DNA from: JBFMHD01 sp040752395 [NCBI: Candidatus Hydrogenedentota bacterium]
GTDB taxonomy: Bacteria > JBFMHD01
Length of the DNA stretch: 9,645 nucleotides
Assembly: GCA_040752395.1 (NCBI GenBank)
Contig: JBFMHD010000102.1
Coordinates: 1 to 9,645, forward strand
Direction of reading: 5' to 3'
Within the stretch, counting starts at the first letter, position 1. Every line of letters starts with the position of its first letter. The position numbers were made by a program, and so were the translations under genes. Shown in pieces: positions 2,114 through 9,601 of this stretch. The notes below the pieces were generated by a model, which was not told where the DNA came from, did no database searches, and was given only the letters and a program-made list of their open reading frames with translations.

Positions 2114-4369
2114 ATGACAGAAGAAAAAAAATATTATATTTTATACCACAATGCTGTTTATGGCTCATATACAATTGAAGAATTAGAGTTATTTCTTACA
2201 CCAGCAACGCTTGTATGCCGTGTTGGTGAAGATACCTGGCATACTGCATCAGATGTAGAAGAATTAAAACCATTATTACAAAAAAAAGCTACGCGACTTG
2301 AACCTGAGCAACCACCGGGATTTGAATACTATGTTTTACATCAAGGTAAAGAATACGGACCATATTCATTAGAGCAATTAAAAGAGTTTGTAACAAAAGC
2401 CACACAGATACGCATCGGTAAAAGTAATCGTTATATTCCTGCCTTTGAGCTTGCTGAACTTTACGATTTTTTTGAAAAAAAAGAGGTATCAGTTGAAAAA
2501 TATTGGTTCTACTATGATGATTCCGGAAAAGAGTTCGGTCCTTTTTCAAGACAGGAGCTTATCAATTTAATTAAAGAAGGCAAAATAACGGCACAAATGA
2601 AATTTAAACATATAACATGGAATATCCCTGTTATCCTTTCTGAATCGAAATTATACAAAGAGGTTACGAGTCCAACTGAACCTGGAAAACCAGAACCATC
2701 AGAAAAGAAACGGTTCGAATGGTATAAATTTTCGTTATTTATCTTTGCTTTCGCAGTTTTATTAATAGGATACTTTTTTCCTAAATCAGCCATTAAGGAG
2801 AATGCCAGGAATAAATCTGTTATTCAGCAAGAAACAAGCCAGGCTGAAGTTGATAGAGAAAATATAAAATCCGAATCTTTAAAAGTCGCCCCAATATTTG
2901 GAAGTTTATCCATTCCCCGGGAAAAAGAAGCTTGTTTAGTAGTTACGATGGTTGATGTAGGACAGGGGGATGGTTTTATTATTGTAACGCCTTCAAAAAA
3001 GGTTTATATAATTGATGCTGGTACGAATTCTACGACTACTATGATACCTTATCTAGGTAAACTGGGAATAACTAACATTGAGGCTGTTATAATGAGCCAT
3101 CCGCATACTGACCATATAGGAGGTATTGAAAAAATTTTATTAAATTTTCCTGTAAAAGAGGTTTATGACCCTGGTTACCCGCACACAACAGCTGTTTATA
3201 AAAAGTTGCTGGAACTAATACTTAACAAAGGGATAAATTATATTAATCCCAGAGCAGGTGATGAATATACCTTTGCAGATAATATCAGGGTTCAGATATT
3301 TCATCCGGATAGACCCGAGTACAGCAATATAAATAACAACTCTATAGTATGTAAACTTACTTACAACAAGACATCGATACTTTTTACAGGTGATGCTGAG
3401 GAGATGGCTGAAAAAATTATGTTAAATAAGTATGGTGACCAGCTACGAGCAGATGTTTTGAAAGTGGGTCATCACGGGAGTACAACCTCAACTACTGAAG
3501 AATGGTTGAGCAGGGTACAACCTAAAATTGCTTTGATTTCGTGCGGTGTAGGGAACAGCTACGGACATCCGCACACAGAGGTTATTGAGCGTTTGGGAAT
3601 GCGTAATATTGAGATCTATCGAACTGATTTAATGGGGTTTGTAATATTGAGATCAGATGGAATGAAATGGAGCGTAACAACTCATGAAACGCTTTATGAT
3701 GATGTTCATTTTGTATTTGATAAGGGGCTGATATATTATGAAACATTTGATGAGATAAATTTTTTAAAAAAATCTGGTTGGAGCGAGATGTTTGTTTCAG
3801 GGAGGGCTGATATATCAGGTGGTGCTTTAACTCTATACGCAGAACCGCGTGAGCAGATATATACTAAAGAGCCATCCGGACCATTAATACTAAAACAGCT
3901 GGAGATAGAGGATGGATACACAGTACTTATCAAGATGCAAGGTTCGGAGGCAAGAAACACTGATGGCGCGATTGTTATTTTTGGAGATAAATGGAACTGG
4001 GTATCATTAAGTTGTGCTGAGAGTAGAAACATCAGTCTTACAAACACAAATAACACCAATCAGAATACCGAATATTTTTATTTAAAGAAAAAACCAATAT
4101 TTTATGCGATTGAATTTTTTAGAGATAATATTAATATAGCTATTAGTGAAAACAGGAAGGATTGGGTAGTTATACGGCGTTATAAAGCAGCGGAGCTTGG
4201 TTTTTCTATTTCAGATGCTCAAATTGGTCTTTCGGCAAATTCCCGGGGTTATCAGCAAGCATTAGCTTTTTTCTTTGAGTATGCGGAATACAGTAGTAGT
4301 AGCAGGGATGCGTTACGCACAACAAAAAACCAGAACTTTGTTCAGGGACAGAGTCAGCAAAAAAAATAG
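2114..4369 (+). CDS. Three GYF_2-like domains, membrane anchor, ComEC-type metallo-beta-lactamase, lectin-like C-terminus
   Basis: Domain order as seen: three GYF_2-like units near residues 6-55, 70-121 and 129-183, each with an aromatic start, a G-x-[FY] or GP[FY] step and a following helix; a basic stretch, then a hydrophobic segment at about 204-223; a metallo-beta-lactamase fold at 275-515; and a C-terminal beta-rich region (about 535-725) resembling LamG/concanavalin-type domains. The metallo domain opens with VDVGQGD and carries HPHTDH at 329-334, GD at 426-427, HH at 453-454 and GHPH at 484-487, the pattern of the extracellular nuclease-like domain of ComEC/Rec2, but without ComEC's channel. 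By inference the GYF units are cytoplasmic and the hydrolase faces outward. The substrate is unknown; nucleic acid or a phosphoester is a reasonable guess. Start context is weak (AAAGG only one base from the ATG), so translation may be coupled to glnS. Confidence 0.8.
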   Translation: MTEEKKYYILYHNAVYGSYTIEELELFLTPATLVCRVGEDTWHTASDVEELKPLLQKKATRLEPEQPPGFEYYVLHQGKEYGPYSLEQLKEFVTKATQIRIGKSNRYIPAFELAELYDFFEKKEVSVEKYWFYYDDSGKEFGPFSRQELINLIKEGKITAQMKFKHITWNIPVILSESKLYKEVTSPTEPGKPEPSEKKRFEWYKFSLFIFAFAVLLIGYFFPKSAIKENARNKSVIQQETSQAEVDRENIKSESLKVAPIFGSLSIPREKEACLVVTMVDVGQGDGFIIVTPSKKVYIIDAGTNSTTTMIPYLGKLGITNIEAVIMSHPHTDHIGGIEKILLNFPVKEVYDPGYPHTTAVYKKLLELILNKGINYINPRAGDEYTFADNIRVQIFHPDRPEYSNINNNSIVCKLTYNKTSILFTGDAEEMAEKIMLNKYGDQLRADVLKVGHHGSTTSTTEEWLSRVQPKIALISCGVGNSYGHPHTEVIERLGMRNIEIYRTDLMGFVILRSDGMKWSVTTHETLYDDVHFVFDKGLIYYETFDEINFLKKSGWSEMFVSGRADISGGALTLYAEPREQIYTKEPSGPLILKQLEIEDGYTVLIKMQGSEARNTDGAIVIFGDKWNWVSLSCAESRNISLTNTNNTNQNTEYFYLKKKPIFYAIEFFRDNINIAISENRKDWVVIRRYKAAELGFSISDAQIGLSANSRGYQQALAFFFEYAEYSSSSRDALRTTKNQNFVQGQSQQKK

Positions 4370-4397
4370 TTGATTTTTATAAATAAATCGCTATAAT
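4370..4397 (+). promoter_or_regulatory. Candidate sigma-70-type promoter for the FapA gene
   Basis: TTGATT (4370-4375) and a perfect TATAAT (4392-4397) are separated by 16 bases in the 35-base gap before the FapA-family gene. A start 7-8 bases after the -10 box falls at 4404-4405, on the ATG itself. No Shine-Dalgarno sequence lies before that ATG, so the mRNA could be leaderless. The region is AT-rich, so a chance match is possible. Confidence 0.45.
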
Positions 4398-4404
4398 AAC
4401 TACG

Positions 4405-5844
4405 ATGATAAAAGAGATTAGGAAACTTGATGACAGGGCCCGGCGAGCCTATATAAAAATTAATGTCTCACCAAATCAGCTTAAAGCAACCTGCAAAATA
4501 GATATACCTGAAGAACTTGAGCCGGTAATACTTACAAAAGAGGATATCAAGGCCGCGTTAAAATTAAGGGGAGTAGTATTTGGCATAAATGAAGAAATTG
4601 TAAATGATATAATTAATCCCCCATATCGGCGAGAGGTTGTTATTGCAGAAGGGAAGCCAAAGAAGAACGGAGAAGATGCTAAACTCGAGTATCTTTTTGA
4701 TCTTGGGAAATTGACACCAAAAGAGTTGGAGGATGGCAGGGTTGATTTTTTTGAGTTAGGGTATGTTAAGAATGTTGTGGAGGGTCAGATACTTGTAAAG
4801 AAGATACCACCCACATCAGGTGAAGCCGGGATGACTGTTACAGGTAAACGGATCGAACCGATATCTGGCAGAGACAAGAAACTGCCAATGGGTAAAAATA
4901 CTGAAATTTCACCCAATGGACTTGAATTAAGAGCTACGACCCAGGGTCATGTTTATATCAAGAATAATAAGGTTATGGTTGAAAATATATTTGTTATAAG
5001 CAGTGATATAGATGTTTCTACGGGTCATATAGATTTTCTTGGCAGAGTTATTGTACATGGTGATGTGGCTGATAGAATAAGAATAACGGCCCGGGATGAT
5101 ATTGAGATTTATGGAGATGTTAGAGCAGCAACGATTAAATCGACTGAGGGAAGTATAAAAATTAGCAGAGCTATATTTGGTCGAAACAGCGCGTTTCTTA
5201 AAGCAAAGAAGAATATCTCGGCAAGATTTGTTGAGCAGGCAAGACTTGAGGCTGGTGGAGATGTTATTGTTCAGGAATATATATTACATTCTGAAGTGAG
5301 GTGTGAGGGTAAGATAGCTGTACTTGGCAAACCTGGTATAATTGCCGGAGGTTCTTATTATTGCATAGAATCTTTATATACAAATGACCTGGGAAGCGAA
5401 TCCGGGGTTAAAACGCAGGTAGAGGTGAATGATTTCACAGCACCAAAGTTGCAGGAAGAGATGTCTAAATTATTAGATGAAAGGTCTGTATTAAAAGCGA
5501 AATTAGCACCATTGGAGAGGGCGCTTAAAGATTTAAGAGAGATAGGGATTAGAGAAGATGCGCTGGCTACACAGAGAAGAGAAGAGCTATTAGAGCTTGT
5601 TAAACCGTTTCGTTATCTTTACCCGCAGTTATGTCTTCTTGAAGATGAGGTTGAAGAAAAAAAGAAATTTTTTAAAACTCTAAGTTCACCGCAAGAGGTT
5701 GTATGTCTTGGAAGGATATATCCCGGGGTGATAATAAAGATTGGTCCTGATGAAGTAGTAATAAAGGCTATGTATAGCAGTAAACGTTTTGTGCTTATTA
5801 ATAACAAAAGTATCAGTGTCCGTGATGTGAGAGCTGGAAGATAA
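4405..5844 (+). CDS. FapA / DUF342 family protein
   Basis: Belongs to the DUF342 family named for FapA, a polar flagellar assembly factor in Vibrio; many members occur in genomes without that system and have no known role. Visible parts: an N-terminal domain (about 12-190) ending in the family's GxxVTG-x-x-I/L-x-P-x-x-G-x-D pattern (MTVTGKRIEPISGRD, 143-157); a repetitive right-handed beta-helix (about 195-330) with short turns such as GRVIVHGDV, DDIEIYGDV and GGDVIV, similar in style to the MinC C-terminal domain; a charged coiled coil (about 345-425); and a small beta C-terminal domain. No signal peptide or membrane segment is seen, so it should be cytoplasmic. At 479 aa it looks complete. 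No flagellar gene is visible in this window, so the symbol fapA is withheld. cca starts 9 bases after its stop. Confidence 0.88.
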   Translation: MIKEIRKLDDRARRAYIKINVSPNQLKATCKIDIPEELEPVILTKEDIKAALKLRGVVFGINEEIVNDIINPPYRREVVIAEGKPKKNGEDAKLEYLFDLGKLTPKELEDGRVDFFELGYVKNVVEGQILVKKIPPTSGEAGMTVTGKRIEPISGRDKKLPMGKNTEISPNGLELRATTQGHVYIKNNKVMVENIFVISSDIDVSTGHIDFLGRVIVHGDVADRIRITARDDIEIYGDVRAATIKSTEGSIKISRAIFGRNSAFLKAKKNISARFVEQARLEAGGDVIVQEYILHSEVRCEGKIAVLGKPGIIAGGSYYCIESLYTNDLGSESGVKTQVEVNDFTAPKLQEEMSKLLDERSVLKAKLAPLERALKDLREIGIREDALATQRREELLELVKPFRYLYPQLCLLEDEVEEKKKFFKTLSSPQEVVCLGRIYPGVIIKIGPDEVVIKAMYSSKRFVLINNKSISVRDVRAGR

Positions 5845-5853
5845 CTATTAATT

Positions 5854-7200
5854 ATGCAAATCCCAGATGAAGTAAAAATATTGATAAATAAATTTAATGA
5901 AAAAGGGTTTAAATCGTATCTTGTTGGTGGTTGTGTAAGAGATTATCTTATGGGTATAAAAGTTAATGATTATGATTTAGCTACTGATGCAACACCAGAT
6001 GAGACAAGCAAAGTATTTAGCCATACGCATCCTGTAGGTGTAGATTTTGGTACGGTCCTTGTCATTATTCAAGGAAAGGGATTTGAGGTAACGAGTTTCA
6101 GAAAGGATATCGAAACAGATGGTCGTCATGCAAAAGTAGAGTTCTCACGAAATCTTATTGATGACCTGAACAGACGTGATTTTACGATTAATGCTATAGC
6201 TTATGACCCTTTGAAGGATGAGTATATAGACCCTTTTAAAGGGAGAGAAGACATAAAAAACAAGATACTACAAAGCGTCGGTGATTCACGGAAGAGATTT
6301 AAAGAGGATTACCTGCGGATTTTACGCGGCATAAGGTTCGCAGCTCGGTTTAAATTACAGATTGAGCAGTCTGTAAAAGAAGCTATTTCTGAAACTAAAA
6401 ACGGTATAAATATTTTATCAGATGAACGGATACGGGAAGAAATTTTAAAATCGCTTGAACAGATTGACAAACCATCAGACTATTTTAACTTGATGGATGA
6501 ATTATCGGTTTTAGCTGTAATTTTACCTGAACTTACAGAGCTTAAAGGCGTAGAGCAGAATTATTATCATCTTTATGATTGTTTTACACATACAATGGTC
6601 TCGATTGACAGAATCAAAAAAAAGTATCCGTTACTCAGACTTACGGTTTTACTTCATGATATAGCCAAACCCGAGTGCAAAACTTTTAAAAATGAGAAAA
6701 AAGATTTTACATTTACTGGTCATGACAGACAGGGTGCCAATATAGCAAAAAAAATTATGACACGATTAAAATTCTCAAAAGACGAGATTAAATACGTAAC
6801 CACTCTTATTAAAAATCATTTATATATACTTAATGAAAATGCGACCAAACCCGCTATACGCAGATATATTAATAGAATTGGTAAAGAATATTTGAAAGAT
6901 ATGTTCAGATTTCATTTTGCAGATGTATATTCACACAGATTTGCAGAGCAGAGAAGGAAGGAGGTACTTAATTTTTATAGACGGATAAAGGAGGTGCTTA
7001 AAGAAGAAAATGTCTTTAGTATAAAGGACCTTGCTATTAATGGTTATGATTTAAAAGATATGGGGTTGGAACCCTCGCCTTTATTCTCTAAAATATTAAA
7101 ACATTGTCTTGAGATCGTTCTTGATAACCCAGATAAAAACAAAAAAGAGATATTGATTGATGAAGTGAAAAAATATTTACAGACTTCTAGCGGGCTGTAG
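5854..7200 (+). CDS. cca: CCA-adding tRNA nucleotidyltransferase with HD domain
   Basis: Class II nucleotidyltransferase of the polymerase-beta superfamily that builds or repairs the 3' CCA of tRNAs. Seen in order: the G-G-x-V-R-D loop (LVGGCVRDYL, 23-32), the metal-binding DYD at 39-41, RRDFTINA at 107-114, the EDYLRILRGIRFAARF helix at 151-166, the SDERIREE motif near 189-196, then an HD domain with H246, H268-D269 and H290-D291. The length (448 aa) fits the HD-containing E. coli-like form. It could instead be a CC-adding or A-adding specialist, or a bacterial poly(A) polymerase, if a paralogue exists elsewhere. ATG 5854 has no Shine-Dalgarno site; with a 9-base gap, coupling to the upstream gene is likely. 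The last four residues (SSGL) and the TAG stop are encoded by a heptamer repeat tract, so the native C-terminus has probably been replaced or slightly altered. Confidence 0.93.
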   Translation: MQIPDEVKILINKFNEKGFKSYLVGGCVRDYLMGIKVNDYDLATDATPDETSKVFSHTHPVGVDFGTVLVIIQGKGFEVTSFRKDIETDGRHAKVEFSRNLIDDLNRRDFTINAIAYDPLKDEYIDPFKGREDIKNKILQSVGDSRKRFKEDYLRILRGIRFAARFKLQIEQSVKEAISETKNGINILSDERIREEILKSLEQIDKPSDYFNLMDELSVLAVILPELTELKGVEQNYYHLYDCFTHTMVSIDRIKKKYPLLRLTVLLHDIAKPECKTFKNEKKDFTFTGHDRQGANIAKKIMTRLKFSKDEIKYVTTLIKNHLYILNENATKPAIRRYINRIGKEYLKDMFRFHFADVYSHRFAEQRRKEVLNFYRRIKEVLKEENVFSIKDLAINGYDLKDMGLEPSPLFSKILKHCLEIVLDNPDKNKKEILIDEVKKYLQTSSGL

Positions 7201-7302
7201 CCCGTAGCCTGTAGCCTGTCCTGCTACTTCTCACTTCCCACTTCTTACTTCTTACTTTTTCCGTTATCTTGCCTCTTGCCTCTTGCTTCTTGCTTCTACT
7301 TG
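7187..7302 (+). repeat. Composite heptamer tandem-repeat tract, copy A
   Basis: From 7191 the tract can be cut into sixteen consecutive 7-base units: one CGGGCTG, three TAGCCTG-like (7198-7218), a linker TCCTGCT, five ACTTCTT-like (7226-7260), a linker CCGTTAT, four CTTGCTT/CTTGCCT (7268-7295) and CTACTTG. Three different heptamer families thus follow each other. CGGGCT-GT-AGCCCG (7191-7204) also forms a perfect 6-bp hairpin around the cca stop. The same families in the same order recur, inverted, at 8561-8673. Confidence 0.85.
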
Positions 7303-7330
7303 ATATCATTAGAGTTACAACGTTTTTCAG

Positions 7331-7335
7331 AGGAG
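7331..7335 (+). promoter_or_regulatory. Ribosome binding site that fixes the DUF362 gene start
   Basis: AGGAG lies 5 bases before ATG 7341. The frame is open back to an ATG at 7269, but codons 7269-7302 fall inside the heptamer repeat tract and give no family-like sequence. The conserved protein begins with MSKVYF at 7341. Confidence 0.8.
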
Positions 7336-7340
7336 ATGAT

Positions 7341-8456
7341 ATGAGTAAGGTTTACTTTATTAATATGCGGGCTAATATGAAAAAAACGAGTTTAAAAAGA
7401 TTACGAGAATTGGTATTAAAATCTAATTTTGATGAAATTTTAGAAAAGAATGATATTACAGCTGTTAAAGTCCATTTTGGTGAGAAAGGGAACGTTGCTT
7501 ATCTGCGGCCGATTTATGTCAGAGAAATAATAGATATGATTAAAGAAAAAGGGGCACGGCCTTTTCTCACTGATGTAAACACAATTTATAAAGGCTCGAG
7601 ATCCGATGCTATTGTGCATTTACAGACAGCGATTGAAAACGGGTTCAATTATGCTTCTATGAACGTACCGATAATTATAGCTGATGGCTTAAAAGGCGAA
7701 GCAAAAATAGATAAACACTTTAATAATTTAAAGCATTATAAAGTCATTGAAATTCCTGAGGCTATATATTATGCAGATAGTTTAATAGTTTTATCTCATT
7801 TCAAATTACATGAAGTAACAGGTTTTGGAGGTGCATTAAAGAATGTTGGCATGGGGTTAGCCACAAAAAGGGGCAAACTATCAATGCATTCGACAGTAGC
7901 ACCTTATGTAAAAGATAAAAAGTGTATAGGTTGTAAATTATGTATTAAATGGTGTCCTATGAATGCTATAGAATTTATCAATGGGAGATCAACGATCAAT
8001 AGTGAAAAATGTATAGGGTGTGGTCAATGTTTAGGAACCTGTCCAGAAGCCGCAATAAGTTTAAAGTGGGACGCATCTTCATCTGTTTTACAGGAGAGAA
8101 TGATGGAGCAATGTTATGCAATGCTCCAAAACAAAAAAGCCAAGGTTTTATTTGTTAATTTTTGTATAGATATAGTGCCTGAGTGCGATTGTTATGGCTA
8201 TTCGGACGCAAAAATATTACCTGATCTTGGTATATTTGCATCAACTGACCCTGTAGCCATTGATAAAGCCTGTGTTGATATGGTATTGAAGTCCATCCCT
8301 CTTGAAAAAACAGAGACAGTGCTTAAAGAAAGAGCAAAAAATAGTGATGTGTTCCGATGGGTGTATCCTGAGATAGATTATAATGTCCAGTTTGAGTATG
8401 CTTGTAAACTCGGGCTTGGCAGTTTGAAATACGAATTAATAAAATTATCGTTATAA
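7341..8456 (+). CDS. DUF362 protein with two [4Fe-4S] motifs (COG2768-like Fe-S center protein)
   Basis: The 371-aa product resembles the uncharacterised Fe-S center proteins grouped as COG2768. The first half (1-185) is a DUF362 domain with VKVHFGEKGN near 43-51, FLTDVNT at 75-81 and the FGGALKNVGMG loop at 162-172. A ferredoxin insert follows, with CxxCxxCxxxCP twice: cysteines 195, 198, 201, 205 and 224, 227, 230, 234, enough for two [4Fe-4S] clusters. The DUF362 fold then resumes, with three further cysteines (275, 282, 284, the last two in ECDC) and ASTDPVAIDKAC near 300-311. No signal peptide or membrane segment is seen, so it is likely cytoplasmic; an electron-transfer or reductive role is inferred, and the substrate is unknown. 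It is separated from cca by 140 bases of mostly repeat sequence and has its own strong ribosome binding site, so it is probably a separate transcription unit. Confidence 0.88.
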   Translation: MSKVYFINMRANMKKTSLKRLRELVLKSNFDEILEKNDITAVKVHFGEKGNVAYLRPIYVREIIDMIKEKGARPFLTDVNTIYKGSRSDAIVHLQTAIENGFNYASMNVPIIIADGLKGEAKIDKHFNNLKHYKVIEIPEAIYYADSLIVLSHFKLHEVTGFGGALKNVGMGLATKRGKLSMHSTVAPYVKDKKCIGCKLCIKWCPMNAIEFINGRSTINSEKCIGCGQCLGTCPEAAISLKWDASSSVLQERMMEQCYAMLQNKKAKVLFVNFCIDIVPECDCYGYSDAKILPDLGIFASTDPVAIDKACVDMVLKSIPLEKTETVLKERAKNSDVFRWVYPEIDYNVQFEYACKLGLGSLKYELIKLSL

Positions 8457-8493
8457 ATTCCCCATCCAGCTATAAAAATAGCGGAATTTAGGT
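8455..8493 (+). terminator. Possible intrinsic terminator after the DUF362 gene
   Basis: AAATTCC (8455-8461) pairs with GGAATTT (8483-8489), and an inner GCTAT-AAAA-ATAGC stem-loop (8469-8482) stacks on it across a 7-base bulge. A short TTTT run follows a few bases later (8493-8496). It is weak but directly abuts the stop codon. Confidence 0.35.
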
Positions 8494-8518
8494 TTTAAAA
8501 AATAAAAATCAAATATAA

Positions 8519-8539
8519 AAAATAGCCGGGCACTATTTT
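8519..8539. terminator. AT-rich hairpin, possible bidirectional terminator
   Basis: AAAATAG (8519-8525) pairs with CTATTTT (8533-8539) around CCGGGCA. The A-rich left and T-rich right flanks suit termination in either direction, but the stem is weak. Confidence 0.3.
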
Positions 8540-8560
8540 ATTCAGAAAGTAGGCAAATAA

Positions 8561-8673
8561 ATTTGCAATTTGCAATTTACAATGGAGCGAAGCGACAAGA
8601 AGCAAGATAACTGAAGAAGTGAGATGTATCAGGACGGGCTACAGGCTACAGGCTACGGACTACAGCCGGCTGG
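8561..8673 (-). repeat. Composite heptamer tandem-repeat tract, copy B (inverted relative to copy A)
   Basis: Read on the minus strand from 8669, the units are CCGGCTG, TAGTCCG, TAGCCTG, TAGCCTG, TAGCCCG, TCCTGAT, ACATCTC, ACTTCTT, CAGTTAT, CTTGCTT, CTTGTCG, CTTCGCT, CCATTGT, AAATTGC, AAATTGC. The order matches copy A (7191-7302). The copies differ mostly by whole units: one extra TAGCCCG, three fewer ACTTCTT-type and fewer CTTGCTT-type. Beyond the shared part, copy B adds an AAATTGC family that is close to the array at 281-301. Confidence 0.85.
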
Positions 8674-8695
8674 AACCCGAAGCCCGGAGCCTGCT

Positions 8696-8748
8696 GAAAA
8701 GTCTTGAGTCTTGAGTCTCGAGTCCTGTTTTGACTCACGACTCTTTTC
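8696..8748. repeat. AGTCTTG heptamer array inside an A/T-flanked dyad
   Basis: Four tandem heptamers, AGTCTTG, AGTCTTG, AGTCTCG, AGTCCTG (8700-8727), are followed by an inverted partner. GAAAAGTCTTGAGTC (8696-8710) can pair with GACTCACGACTCTTTTC (8732-8748), with one mismatch and a two-base bulge. With A's on the left and T's on the right, it could end both the plus-strand DUF362 transcript and the converging minus-strand tRNA transcript. Terminator function is inferred. Confidence 0.55.
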
Positions 8749-8805
8749 ATATCATCTTTAGTTTTTCATATTTTATATTTTATATCTTGGTGAGAGAATT
8801 TGGGC

Positions 8806-8882
8806 TGGTCGGGGTGAGAGGATTTGAACCTCCGACTTTCTGGTCCCGAACCAGACGCGCTCCCGAACTGCGCTACACCCCG
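8806..8882 (-). tRNA. tRNA-Pro(CGG)
   Basis: On the minus strand the 77-base sequence folds as a full cloverleaf: acceptor CGGGGTG/CACCCCG, D stem GCGC/GCGC, anticodon stem TCTGG/CCAGA with loop TTCGGGA, and T arm GGAGG-TTCAAAT-CCTCT. The anticodon CGG (plus-strand 8846-8848) reads CCG proline codons; G follows it at position 37. The 3' ACCA is encoded (8806-8809), so cca would act here only in repair. It closely resembles the E. coli proline tRNA of the same anticodon. The AT-rich upstream side (8883-8960) shows no promoter I would defend. It converges on the DUF362 gene. Confidence 0.95.
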
Positions 8883-8997
8883 ATTGTAATTTTAATAATA
8901 TCAATAAAAATTAAGATTTTTCCTTGATTTCAAAGAAATTAGAACTAATTATATCAAATTATAAATGAATAATAAAAAGCACTTTTAAGCATAAATT

Positions 8998-9075
8998 TGG
9001 TTACACTGTGGTGACAATCTAAAGCCATTTTTTAAATAAAAAATTGCCTCAAAAATTGTCACCACAGTGTAACCA
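8998..9075. repeat. Perfect 21-bp inverted repeat, transposon-end-like
   Basis: Bases 8998-9018 (TGGTTACACTG...) are the exact reverse complement of 9055-9075 (...CAGTGTAACCA), with 36 AT-rich bases between. The unit contains TGTCACCACAGTGTAACC. It can be read either as a 78-bp MITE-like element with terminal inverted repeats or as two insertion-sequence ends facing each other. I see no clear target-site duplication. A hairpin role cannot be excluded. Confidence 0.7.
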
Positions 9076-9078
9076 TCT

Positions 9079-9099
9079 ATTATCACCATAATGTAACCA
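9079..9099 (+). repeat. Third, diverged copy of the 21-bp repeat
   Basis: Matches 9055-9075 at 18 of 21 positions in the same orientation, starting 24 bases later. Multiple end-repeats of this kind occur at the termini of some insertion sequences, such as the IS21 family. Confidence 0.6.
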
Positions 9100-9205
9100 T
9101 TGCAGATAACGCCGCTTGACTTGCTACTTTGATCGCTTTGTAAGTATTTTCGATTTTTTCGTCAAGTTCTTTCCAACGATAATATGGAAAGTATCCCGGA
9201 CATCG
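9083..9205 (-). pseudogene. Possible C-terminal fragment of a mobile-element protein
   Basis: Forty codons read from 9205 down to TGA at 9083-9085, starting RCPGYFPYYRWKELDEKIEN and ending SAMVTLW. The helical, charged composition looks more protein-like than the AT-rich frame before it. The last five codons (MVTLW) lie inside the diverged 21-bp repeat, as expected for a transposase reading into its element's end. I cannot assign a family; it is too short for certainty. Confidence 0.25.
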
Positions 9206-9355: not shown

Positions 9356-9601
9356 TTATTTACACAATTTTTCTATTGACATCCCGCCACACCGGTAATC
9401 CACCCGGTTTTCGTCTCGTGCATATCTGCCAGCACAAAGATAACGTGTGATATCTGTACTTATAGTTGCTTCTAACGTTTTCTTTAACATCTCTAAATGT
9501 TGGGGTTTCAAATCTCCACAGATATCATCCTCTTCGACCTTGACTTCTTTCCATAAGTCTGATTCTGTTAAGGCTGTTAACGGCTTACTCATGCTTTTCA
9601 T
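9356..9601 (-). pseudogene. IS256/mutator-type transposase, N-terminal remnant
   Basis: The 81-residue frame starts at ATG 9601. Residues 8-72 resemble the N-terminus of mutator (IS256-like) transposases: LTESDLWKEV near 11-20, a helix corresponding to the family's LE-x-x-x-x-x-E-[LM]-T segment, then AGRYARDENRVDYRCG at 57-72, where intact proteins read GYR or GYY after YRN. Similarity stops at about residue 72 (base 9386), and the frame ends nine codons later. The DDE catalytic domain is missing, so the protein cannot be active. An AAGGAGG (9612-9618) lies 10 bases before the ATG. The breakpoint joins AT-rich DNA at 9206-9385 that is unlike a transposase in any frame I read. Confidence 0.6.

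Follow-up and report, generated by a model that had tools for sequence, protein, structure and literature searches.

Two inverted copies of a composite heptamer tract, probably built by gain and loss of 7-base units, around a DUF362 gene of Candidatus Hydrogenedentota

The window, by which we mean the whole 9,645-nucleotide stretch analyzed here, carries two copies of one composite tract in which several tandem heptamer arrays follow each other in a shared order. Copy A (7185-7294, + strand) was placed by A/B alignment, Tandem Repeats Finder, a mismatch-tolerant lag scan, and folding, and copy B (8586-8675, - strand, inverted relative to A) by the alignment. The composite was probably generated by slippage-type gain and loss of 7 bases on diverging units and then copied.

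Period-7 arrays in the window

Eight exact tandem runs of at least 10 matches were detected in the window, all with period 7 and all (8/8) intergenic; they represent seven arrays, as the array at 7267-7297 holds two overlapping exact runs. The same scan at periods 2 to 6 and 8 to 30 returned no runs in the window. When the threshold was lowered to at least 9 matches, nine intergenic period-7 runs were found, together with one run each at lags 19, 20, and 24. When the intergenic pieces were dinucleotide-shuffled 1,000 times, period-7 runs of at least 10 matches averaged 0.003 per shuffle, with a maximum of 1. The window thus contains 7-base tandem runs beyond chance (8 versus 0.003 per shuffle), the hallmark of heptanucleotide long simple sequence repeats; these lie outside coding sequence, and strong 7-base arrays occur to the exclusion of other periods.

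Tandem Repeats Finder, run at its lowest threshold, reported 14 rows, nine of them with period 7 (281-297, 7195-7219, 7226-7257, 7267-7297, 8560-8583, 8637-8665, 8700-8724, 8764-8785, and a weak A-rich row at 8496-8524). The remaining five rows were weak, with periods of 6, 6, 9, 10, and 24. The mismatch-tolerant lag scan identified three tracts in the window, 3/3 with period 7. The same scan outside ORFs gave period 7 in 1/8 tracts from 100 kb of genome G007, no tracts at all in 100 kb of G008, 0/1 in 45 kb of G010 plus G205, and 0/5 at nine DUF362-related loci.

The window may come from a metagenome record, and an assembly or sequencing artefact, or chance, could then be held responsible for the tracts. 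Their units have diverged and are not perfect copies, eight runs stand against an expectation of 0.003, and tracts of the same style occur in other genomes (below), all of which makes this explanation extremely improbable. The composite tract proposed from an earlier, sequence-only reading is therefore real, and the additional arrays with other motifs that it had pointed out were located at 281-297 (AATGCAA, + strand) and 8700-8724 (AGTCTTG, + strand); a TTTTATA array (8764-8785, + strand) was absent from its list.

The AATGCAA array lies just 3' of a match to group II intron RNA. This Rfam match (141-274) scored 41.1 bits against a cut-off of 40, and the array begins 7 bases past it. The match overlaps the end of a frame (1-177) that looks like a truncated reverse transcriptase but had no Pfam match.

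Homology of copies A and B

Copy A consists of a hairpin, CGGGCTGTAGCCCG, followed by a TAGCCTG array (7195-7219, + strand, 3.6 units, 88% matches), a connector, an ACTTCTT array (7226-7257, + strand, 4.6 units), a second connector, and a CTTGCCT/CTTGCTT array (7267-7297, + strand, 4.4 units); the tolerant lag scan placed the tract at 7216-7307. Shared by both copies were the hairpin start, the TAGCCTG and ACTTCTT arrays, and the first part of the CTTGCTT array, as had been claimed for the families and their order. The shared homology covers spans somewhat different from the 7191-7302 and 8561-8673 given previously, and an AATTTGC array adjoining copy B (8560-8583, + strand), which those limits had placed inside it, is absent from copy A.

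The local alignment of A and B scored 91.5, compared with a best score of 36.5 from 500 base shuffles and a best of 69.5 from 500 shuffles of the 7-base blocks of A. The order of the blocks itself therefore carries signal, because the score exceeds that of block-shuffled sequence. The non-repeat connectors also align, TGTCCTGCT with CGTCCTGAT after the TAGCCTG array and CCGTTATCTTGC with CAGTTATCTTGC after the ACTTCTT array; the connector words are GTCCTG 3' of the TAGCCTG array and GTTATCTTGC ahead of the last array. As judged from this alignment, A and B are homologous, connectors included. Since the non-repeat connectors align too, the shared order is most simply read as descent of one composite that was copied, and the view that a fixed order of motifs needs an explanation of its own found no support.

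Relative to A, copy B has one TAGCCTG unit more and three ACTTCTT units fewer. The alignment gaps measured 7, 21, 2, 2, and 2 bases, so the expectation that the copies differ by whole units held for the first two gaps (28 of the 34 gapped bases) but not for the three 2-base gaps, which all fall in the last array, the weak 3' part of the alignment.

The motifs had also been described as unrelated, which is overstated at one point, as ACTTCTT differs by one base from the GCTTCTT of the CTTGCTT array, but holds for the seven motifs as a set, whose likeness did not exceed that of shuffled motifs (P = 0.54). A unit in tract A, GCCTCTT, differs at two bases from GCCTGTA (TAGCCTG in rotated form), and 2/9 nearby motif pairs in the window were one base apart, compared with 9% of control pairs. 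Given how weak these window pairs are (2/9 versus 9%, and P = 0.54 for the set), a step in which units diverge rests on the other genomes described below.

Two further arrangements were considered. A grouping of the seven window motifs as one mutational family found no support, their likeness being at the shuffled level given above, and a single 7-base phase through all blocks, which the eye seemed to pick out, was rejected because long-lag matching did not exceed that of random phase shifts (P = 0.54 for A and 0.60 for B).

Genomic setting of the copies

Five + strand genes are annotated in the window, encoding a GlnRS, a GYF plus metallo-beta-lactamase protein, FapA, a CCA-adding type nucleotidyltransferase, and a DUF362/ferredoxin protein. 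Copy A sits between the CCA-adding/poly(A) polymerase-like (cca-like) gene (5854-7200, + strand; PF01743, PF12627, PF13735) and the DUF362 plus 4Fe-4S ferredoxin gene (7341-8456, + strand; PF04015). Copy B sits between the latter and a tRNA-Pro(CGG) gene (8806-8882, - strand), downstream of the tRNA and in the same orientation.

The GlnRS shares 57 to 63% identity with those of G003, G004, and G005; GlnRS is usually missing from cyanobacteria. A search of genome contigs with the DUF362 protein returned nine distant loci only, none from a close relative of the window organism. The gene at 2114-4369 fuses three GYF_2 domains to a metallo-beta-lactamase domain and continues into a long C-terminal region without a Pfam match. 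A perfect 21-base inverted repeat (8998-9018/9055-9075) and a degenerate 24-base tandem (Tandem Repeats Finder, 9055-9100) lie between tRNA-Pro and a small ORF. An ORF of 81 amino acids (9356-9601, - strand) likewise has no Pfam match.

The first unit of the TAGCCTG array in copy A provides the stop codon of the cca-like gene. Homology between A and B starts at 7185, within this gene, so that its final codons and stop (TCT AGC GGG CTG TAG) belong to the tract. The gap that holds copy A measures 140 bases, compared with 19, 35, and 9 bases for the other three gaps of the gene row. This difference, and the presence of the last codons inside the A/B homology, suggest that the composite came to the end of the cca-like gene as one block. 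The insertion of A is inferred from these features.

A tight gene row interrupted by A, and two inverted copies about 1.3 kb apart, would also fit a mobile element or a non-autonomous derivative of one (MITE- or REP-like) in which the heptamers are incidental, and the inverted copies could then bound a mobile DUF362 cassette. An imperfect 54-base hairpin in copy B (8641-8694, - strand; RNA fold, inverted repeat I6) could be counted in favor of such an element, as could the word CTTCTA on either side of A (at 7184 and 7293), which is weak as a target duplication because it is embedded in CTTCT-rich sequence. No terminal inverted words of at least 6 bases, such as a MITE would carry, were found at the ends of A or B, and none of the seven ORFs scanned matched a transposase family. 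BLAST of copy A against 50,697 phage and 72,556 plasmid records (E = 0.01) gave no match, in a search whose low-complexity filter may hide some. With regard to REP/BIME-type palindromes, there are two copies only, with the long hairpin in B and none of note in A. We consider a mobile element rather improbable.

In the copy B hairpin, the TAGCCTG array forms one arm and a degenerate heptad array in inverted orientation the other, with roughly one mismatch per 7 bases, a pattern that would fit an old duplication of units in inverted orientation. The RNA fold of 8641-8694 had z = -2.14 on the - strand (equalled by 4/200 shuffles) and z = -0.69 on the + strand (40/200), and copy A folded no better than shuffled sequence (z = -0.32). 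No canonical terminator was found in A or B; the interval 7100-8900 held two terminator-like sites (shuffle mean, 1.2), one of which lies inside the AGTCTTG array.

These properties bear on a functional alternative, in which the tracts serve as RNA- or DNA-binding platforms, each heptamer taken up by one OB-fold cold-shock-type protein or other regulator that tunes stability or translation. For copy A the platform would lie in the cca-DUF362 intergenic part of the transcript, and for copy B downstream of tRNA-Pro. Bacillus subtilis CspB binds heptamer repeats with one protein per heptamer and has been considered for the TAACTGA repeats (PMC4679880). A and B are oriented alike with respect to their upstream genes (cca and tRNA-Pro, respectively), and copy A ends about 45 bases ahead of the DUF362 start codon. 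The fold of copy A at shuffle level and the free variation of unit numbers between A and B speak against a platform, and only two copies were seen, whose likeness is expected from copying alone. A binding function of this kind, at either location, is in our judgment quite unlikely.

Similar tracts in other genomes

Composite period-7 tracts were found beyond the window, as the sequence-only reading would lead one to expect, in genomes G154 and G006. The exact composite of the window was present in none of 395 genomes from the phylum to which G004 belongs (G004 is the genome of the Chlorobiota record that locus L008 comes from), and the TAGCCTG array in none of 400 genomes from the phylum of G005. 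A TAGCCTG triple with at most one mismatch matched one (G154) of 198 genomes sampled from the G004 phylum, a count that is uninformative alone because the reversed control pattern also matched one (G120).

G154 contained 41 GGCTACNGGCTACNG sites, whereas the reversed control had no match there. A search of 41 genomes, taken as G154 relatives, found GGCTACNGGCTACNG in six (G154 included), with 41 sites in G154, 16 in G006, 9 in G061, and one each in three others; the single matches represent background, since seven genomes have one reversed-control match. A common motif order in G154 runs from GGCTACN through GAATACC or GACTACC and GACTTCC to GCCCACC. GGCTAC followed by GCCCAC gave 50 matches at 30 places, compared with seven matches for the reversed-pattern control; one of the 30 places (C57) did not have the look of a heptamer tract. 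At 22/30 places the spacing between the last GGCTAC and GCCCAC fell into one class modulo 7, with values of 15, 22, 29, and 36 (two to five units). The binomial P of 5e-13 for this commonest class treats places as independent and is too small, because several are near-identical duplicates (C4 and C91, and two in C4). The opposite order gave 12 matches at nine places (its own reversed control, 9), some of which are real heptamer tracts; the motif order in G154 is thus not absolute.

In G006, tracts run from GAATTCA through GAAGTCA and GAAGCCA to GTAGCCA and GCAGCCA. The order GAATTCA to GTAGCCA was found at four places, one of which (C9) passes straight from the first to the last with no intermediate unit, and the reversed order at one place.

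Thirteen of the 20 G154 stretches and five G006 stretches had been picked for holding arrays. Among tracts in unselected stretches, 4/16 in G154 and 4/12 in G006 had period 7, which is common there but not exclusive. Outside ORFs in all stretches, array-picked ones included, the proportions were 31/58 and 13/17. Inside automatic ORFs of at least 100 amino acids, some of which may be spurious, they were 14/34 and 3/15. Other modules are repeated in mosaic in the intergenic DNA of G154 (L049, L061, L062, L088), such as CATCCGTG...AATCCGTG and GGATAGCTTGACAGCTCGATAGCTGAAGAGCTTAAC.

We also searched IMG/VR with four patterns, each of about 2.7 units of a window motif, and recovered 37 stretches (7, 13, 7, and 10 by pattern). 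A further period-7 array of another motif was present in 14/37, several of which look like the same virus two or three times, and in 0/13 of the ACTTCTT stretches. The composite pattern of the window had no match in the viral contigs. One viral contig (L014) carries two long 13-base arrays (GCTACAGATCGCC) of 19 and 25 units at 3336-4667 and, about 2 kb past them, a perfect nine-unit ACAGGCT array (6833-6896).

If units diverge locally and are then re-expanded, neighbors that differ by one base should be in excess, and such an excess was observed outside the window. In viral contigs, 8/12 distinct motif pairs within 100 bases were one base apart, compared with 12% of control pairs made of motifs from different loci. 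The corresponding values for neighboring motifs were 9/25 versus 9% in G154 and 5/14 versus 16% in G006. The parallels in G154, G006, and the viral contigs are a likeness of architecture, not of descent.

Relation to known heptamer repeats

Mrazek, Guo and Shah (2007; via PMC4679880 and PMC4692102) reported period 7 as the commonest class of long simple repeats in most genomes studied, in scattered lineages. That long simple repeats of bacteria have a period in common without sharing sequence has likewise been published, and polymerase slippage has been proposed as the cause (Mrazek 2007, via PMC4679880). The window resembles these heptanucleotide repeats in its period-7 tandem units and differs from them, as they are portrayed in these citing papers, in that a single block here combines several motif families, whose order and connectors are repeated in its second copy.

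Heptamers of filamentous cyanobacteria are known as STRR. The window shares with them intergenic tandem heptamers of several motifs, which bears out the likeness in style noted from the sequence, and gives no sign of a cyanobacterial host. Three tandem heptanucleotides are described for the filamentous cyanobacterium Calothrix PCC 7601 (PMC4692102), and composites of different STRR motifs are not described in the excerpted text of that paper.

The TAACTGA direct repeats of Beggiatoaceae, Cyanobacteria, and Bacteroidetes are mostly intergenic tandem heptamers with a patchy distribution (PMC4679880). The tandem heptamers of the window are also intergenic; TAACTGA, the one fixed motif given for that class in the excerpts, is not tandem in the window, where TAACTGATAACTGA occurs zero times on both strands.

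The GGGNATC and GGGGAYT G-quadruplex heptamers of Xanthomonas and Nostoc form heterogeneous arrays that vary strongly in length between close relatives, some as inverted pairs (PMC4692102). Heterogeneous heptamer arrays and an inverted pair are seen in the window as well, but the published elements, as excerpted, belong to one G-rich motif family, whereas copy A has one GGG and two CCC, and copy B, read as A, has no GGG and one CCC; a GGG run in each unit was found in neither. Geobacter metallireducens has 49 four-unit GGGACCG elements, within genes and between them (PMC2700814). These, like the window composite, are a dispersed family of tandem heptamers and, unlike it, are described there as having a single motif and four units and as occurring also inside genes.

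Origin of the composite

The reading that we hold to be probable, slippage-type change on diverging units followed by copying, would proceed as follows. Slippage-type replication errors, as proposed in print (PMC4679880, PMC4692102), would add or remove single 7-base units. Point mutation may alter a unit, and later duplications could spread the change to its neighbors, giving blocks of different, often related motifs; this step is supported outside the window. The finished composite would then have given rise to an inverted copy at a second site some 1.3 kb distant, as the A/B alignment supports, and the block order would be fixed because the composite was copied ready-made. Subsequent gains and losses of units would account for the unequal lengths of A and B. 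For copy A, the arrival point appears to have been the 3' end of a tight gene row, where the composite would have replaced the end of the cca-like gene. Most of it may be neutral spacer DNA that serves no specific function and is tolerated chiefly in intergenic positions, 7 not being a multiple of 3. A proposal in print links the preference for 7 to how long a DNA segment the polymerase interacts with (PMC4679880, PMC4692102).

On a broader interpretation, composite heptad tracts with an ordered structure would make up a class of their own among dispersed bacterial repeats, present in lineages that are not related. They would be the work of a lineage-specific process that advances in fixed 7-base steps (a polymerase, reverse transcriptase, or repair enzyme whose grip on the template spans 7 nucleotides) and would spread as intergenic cassettes; we regard this as doubtful. 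Published work already covers an excess of heptanucleotides as well as arrays that are heterogeneous within one motif family. A composite of several heptamer families in conserved order was not found described in the literature searched, part of it in excerpt.

The window, with period 7 as its only strong period, and composites with a step-by-step unit history offer test material for the question of why 7-base units are so frequent in bacterial tandem repeats. Reading them as products of divergence and re-expansion predicts which motifs would adjoin.
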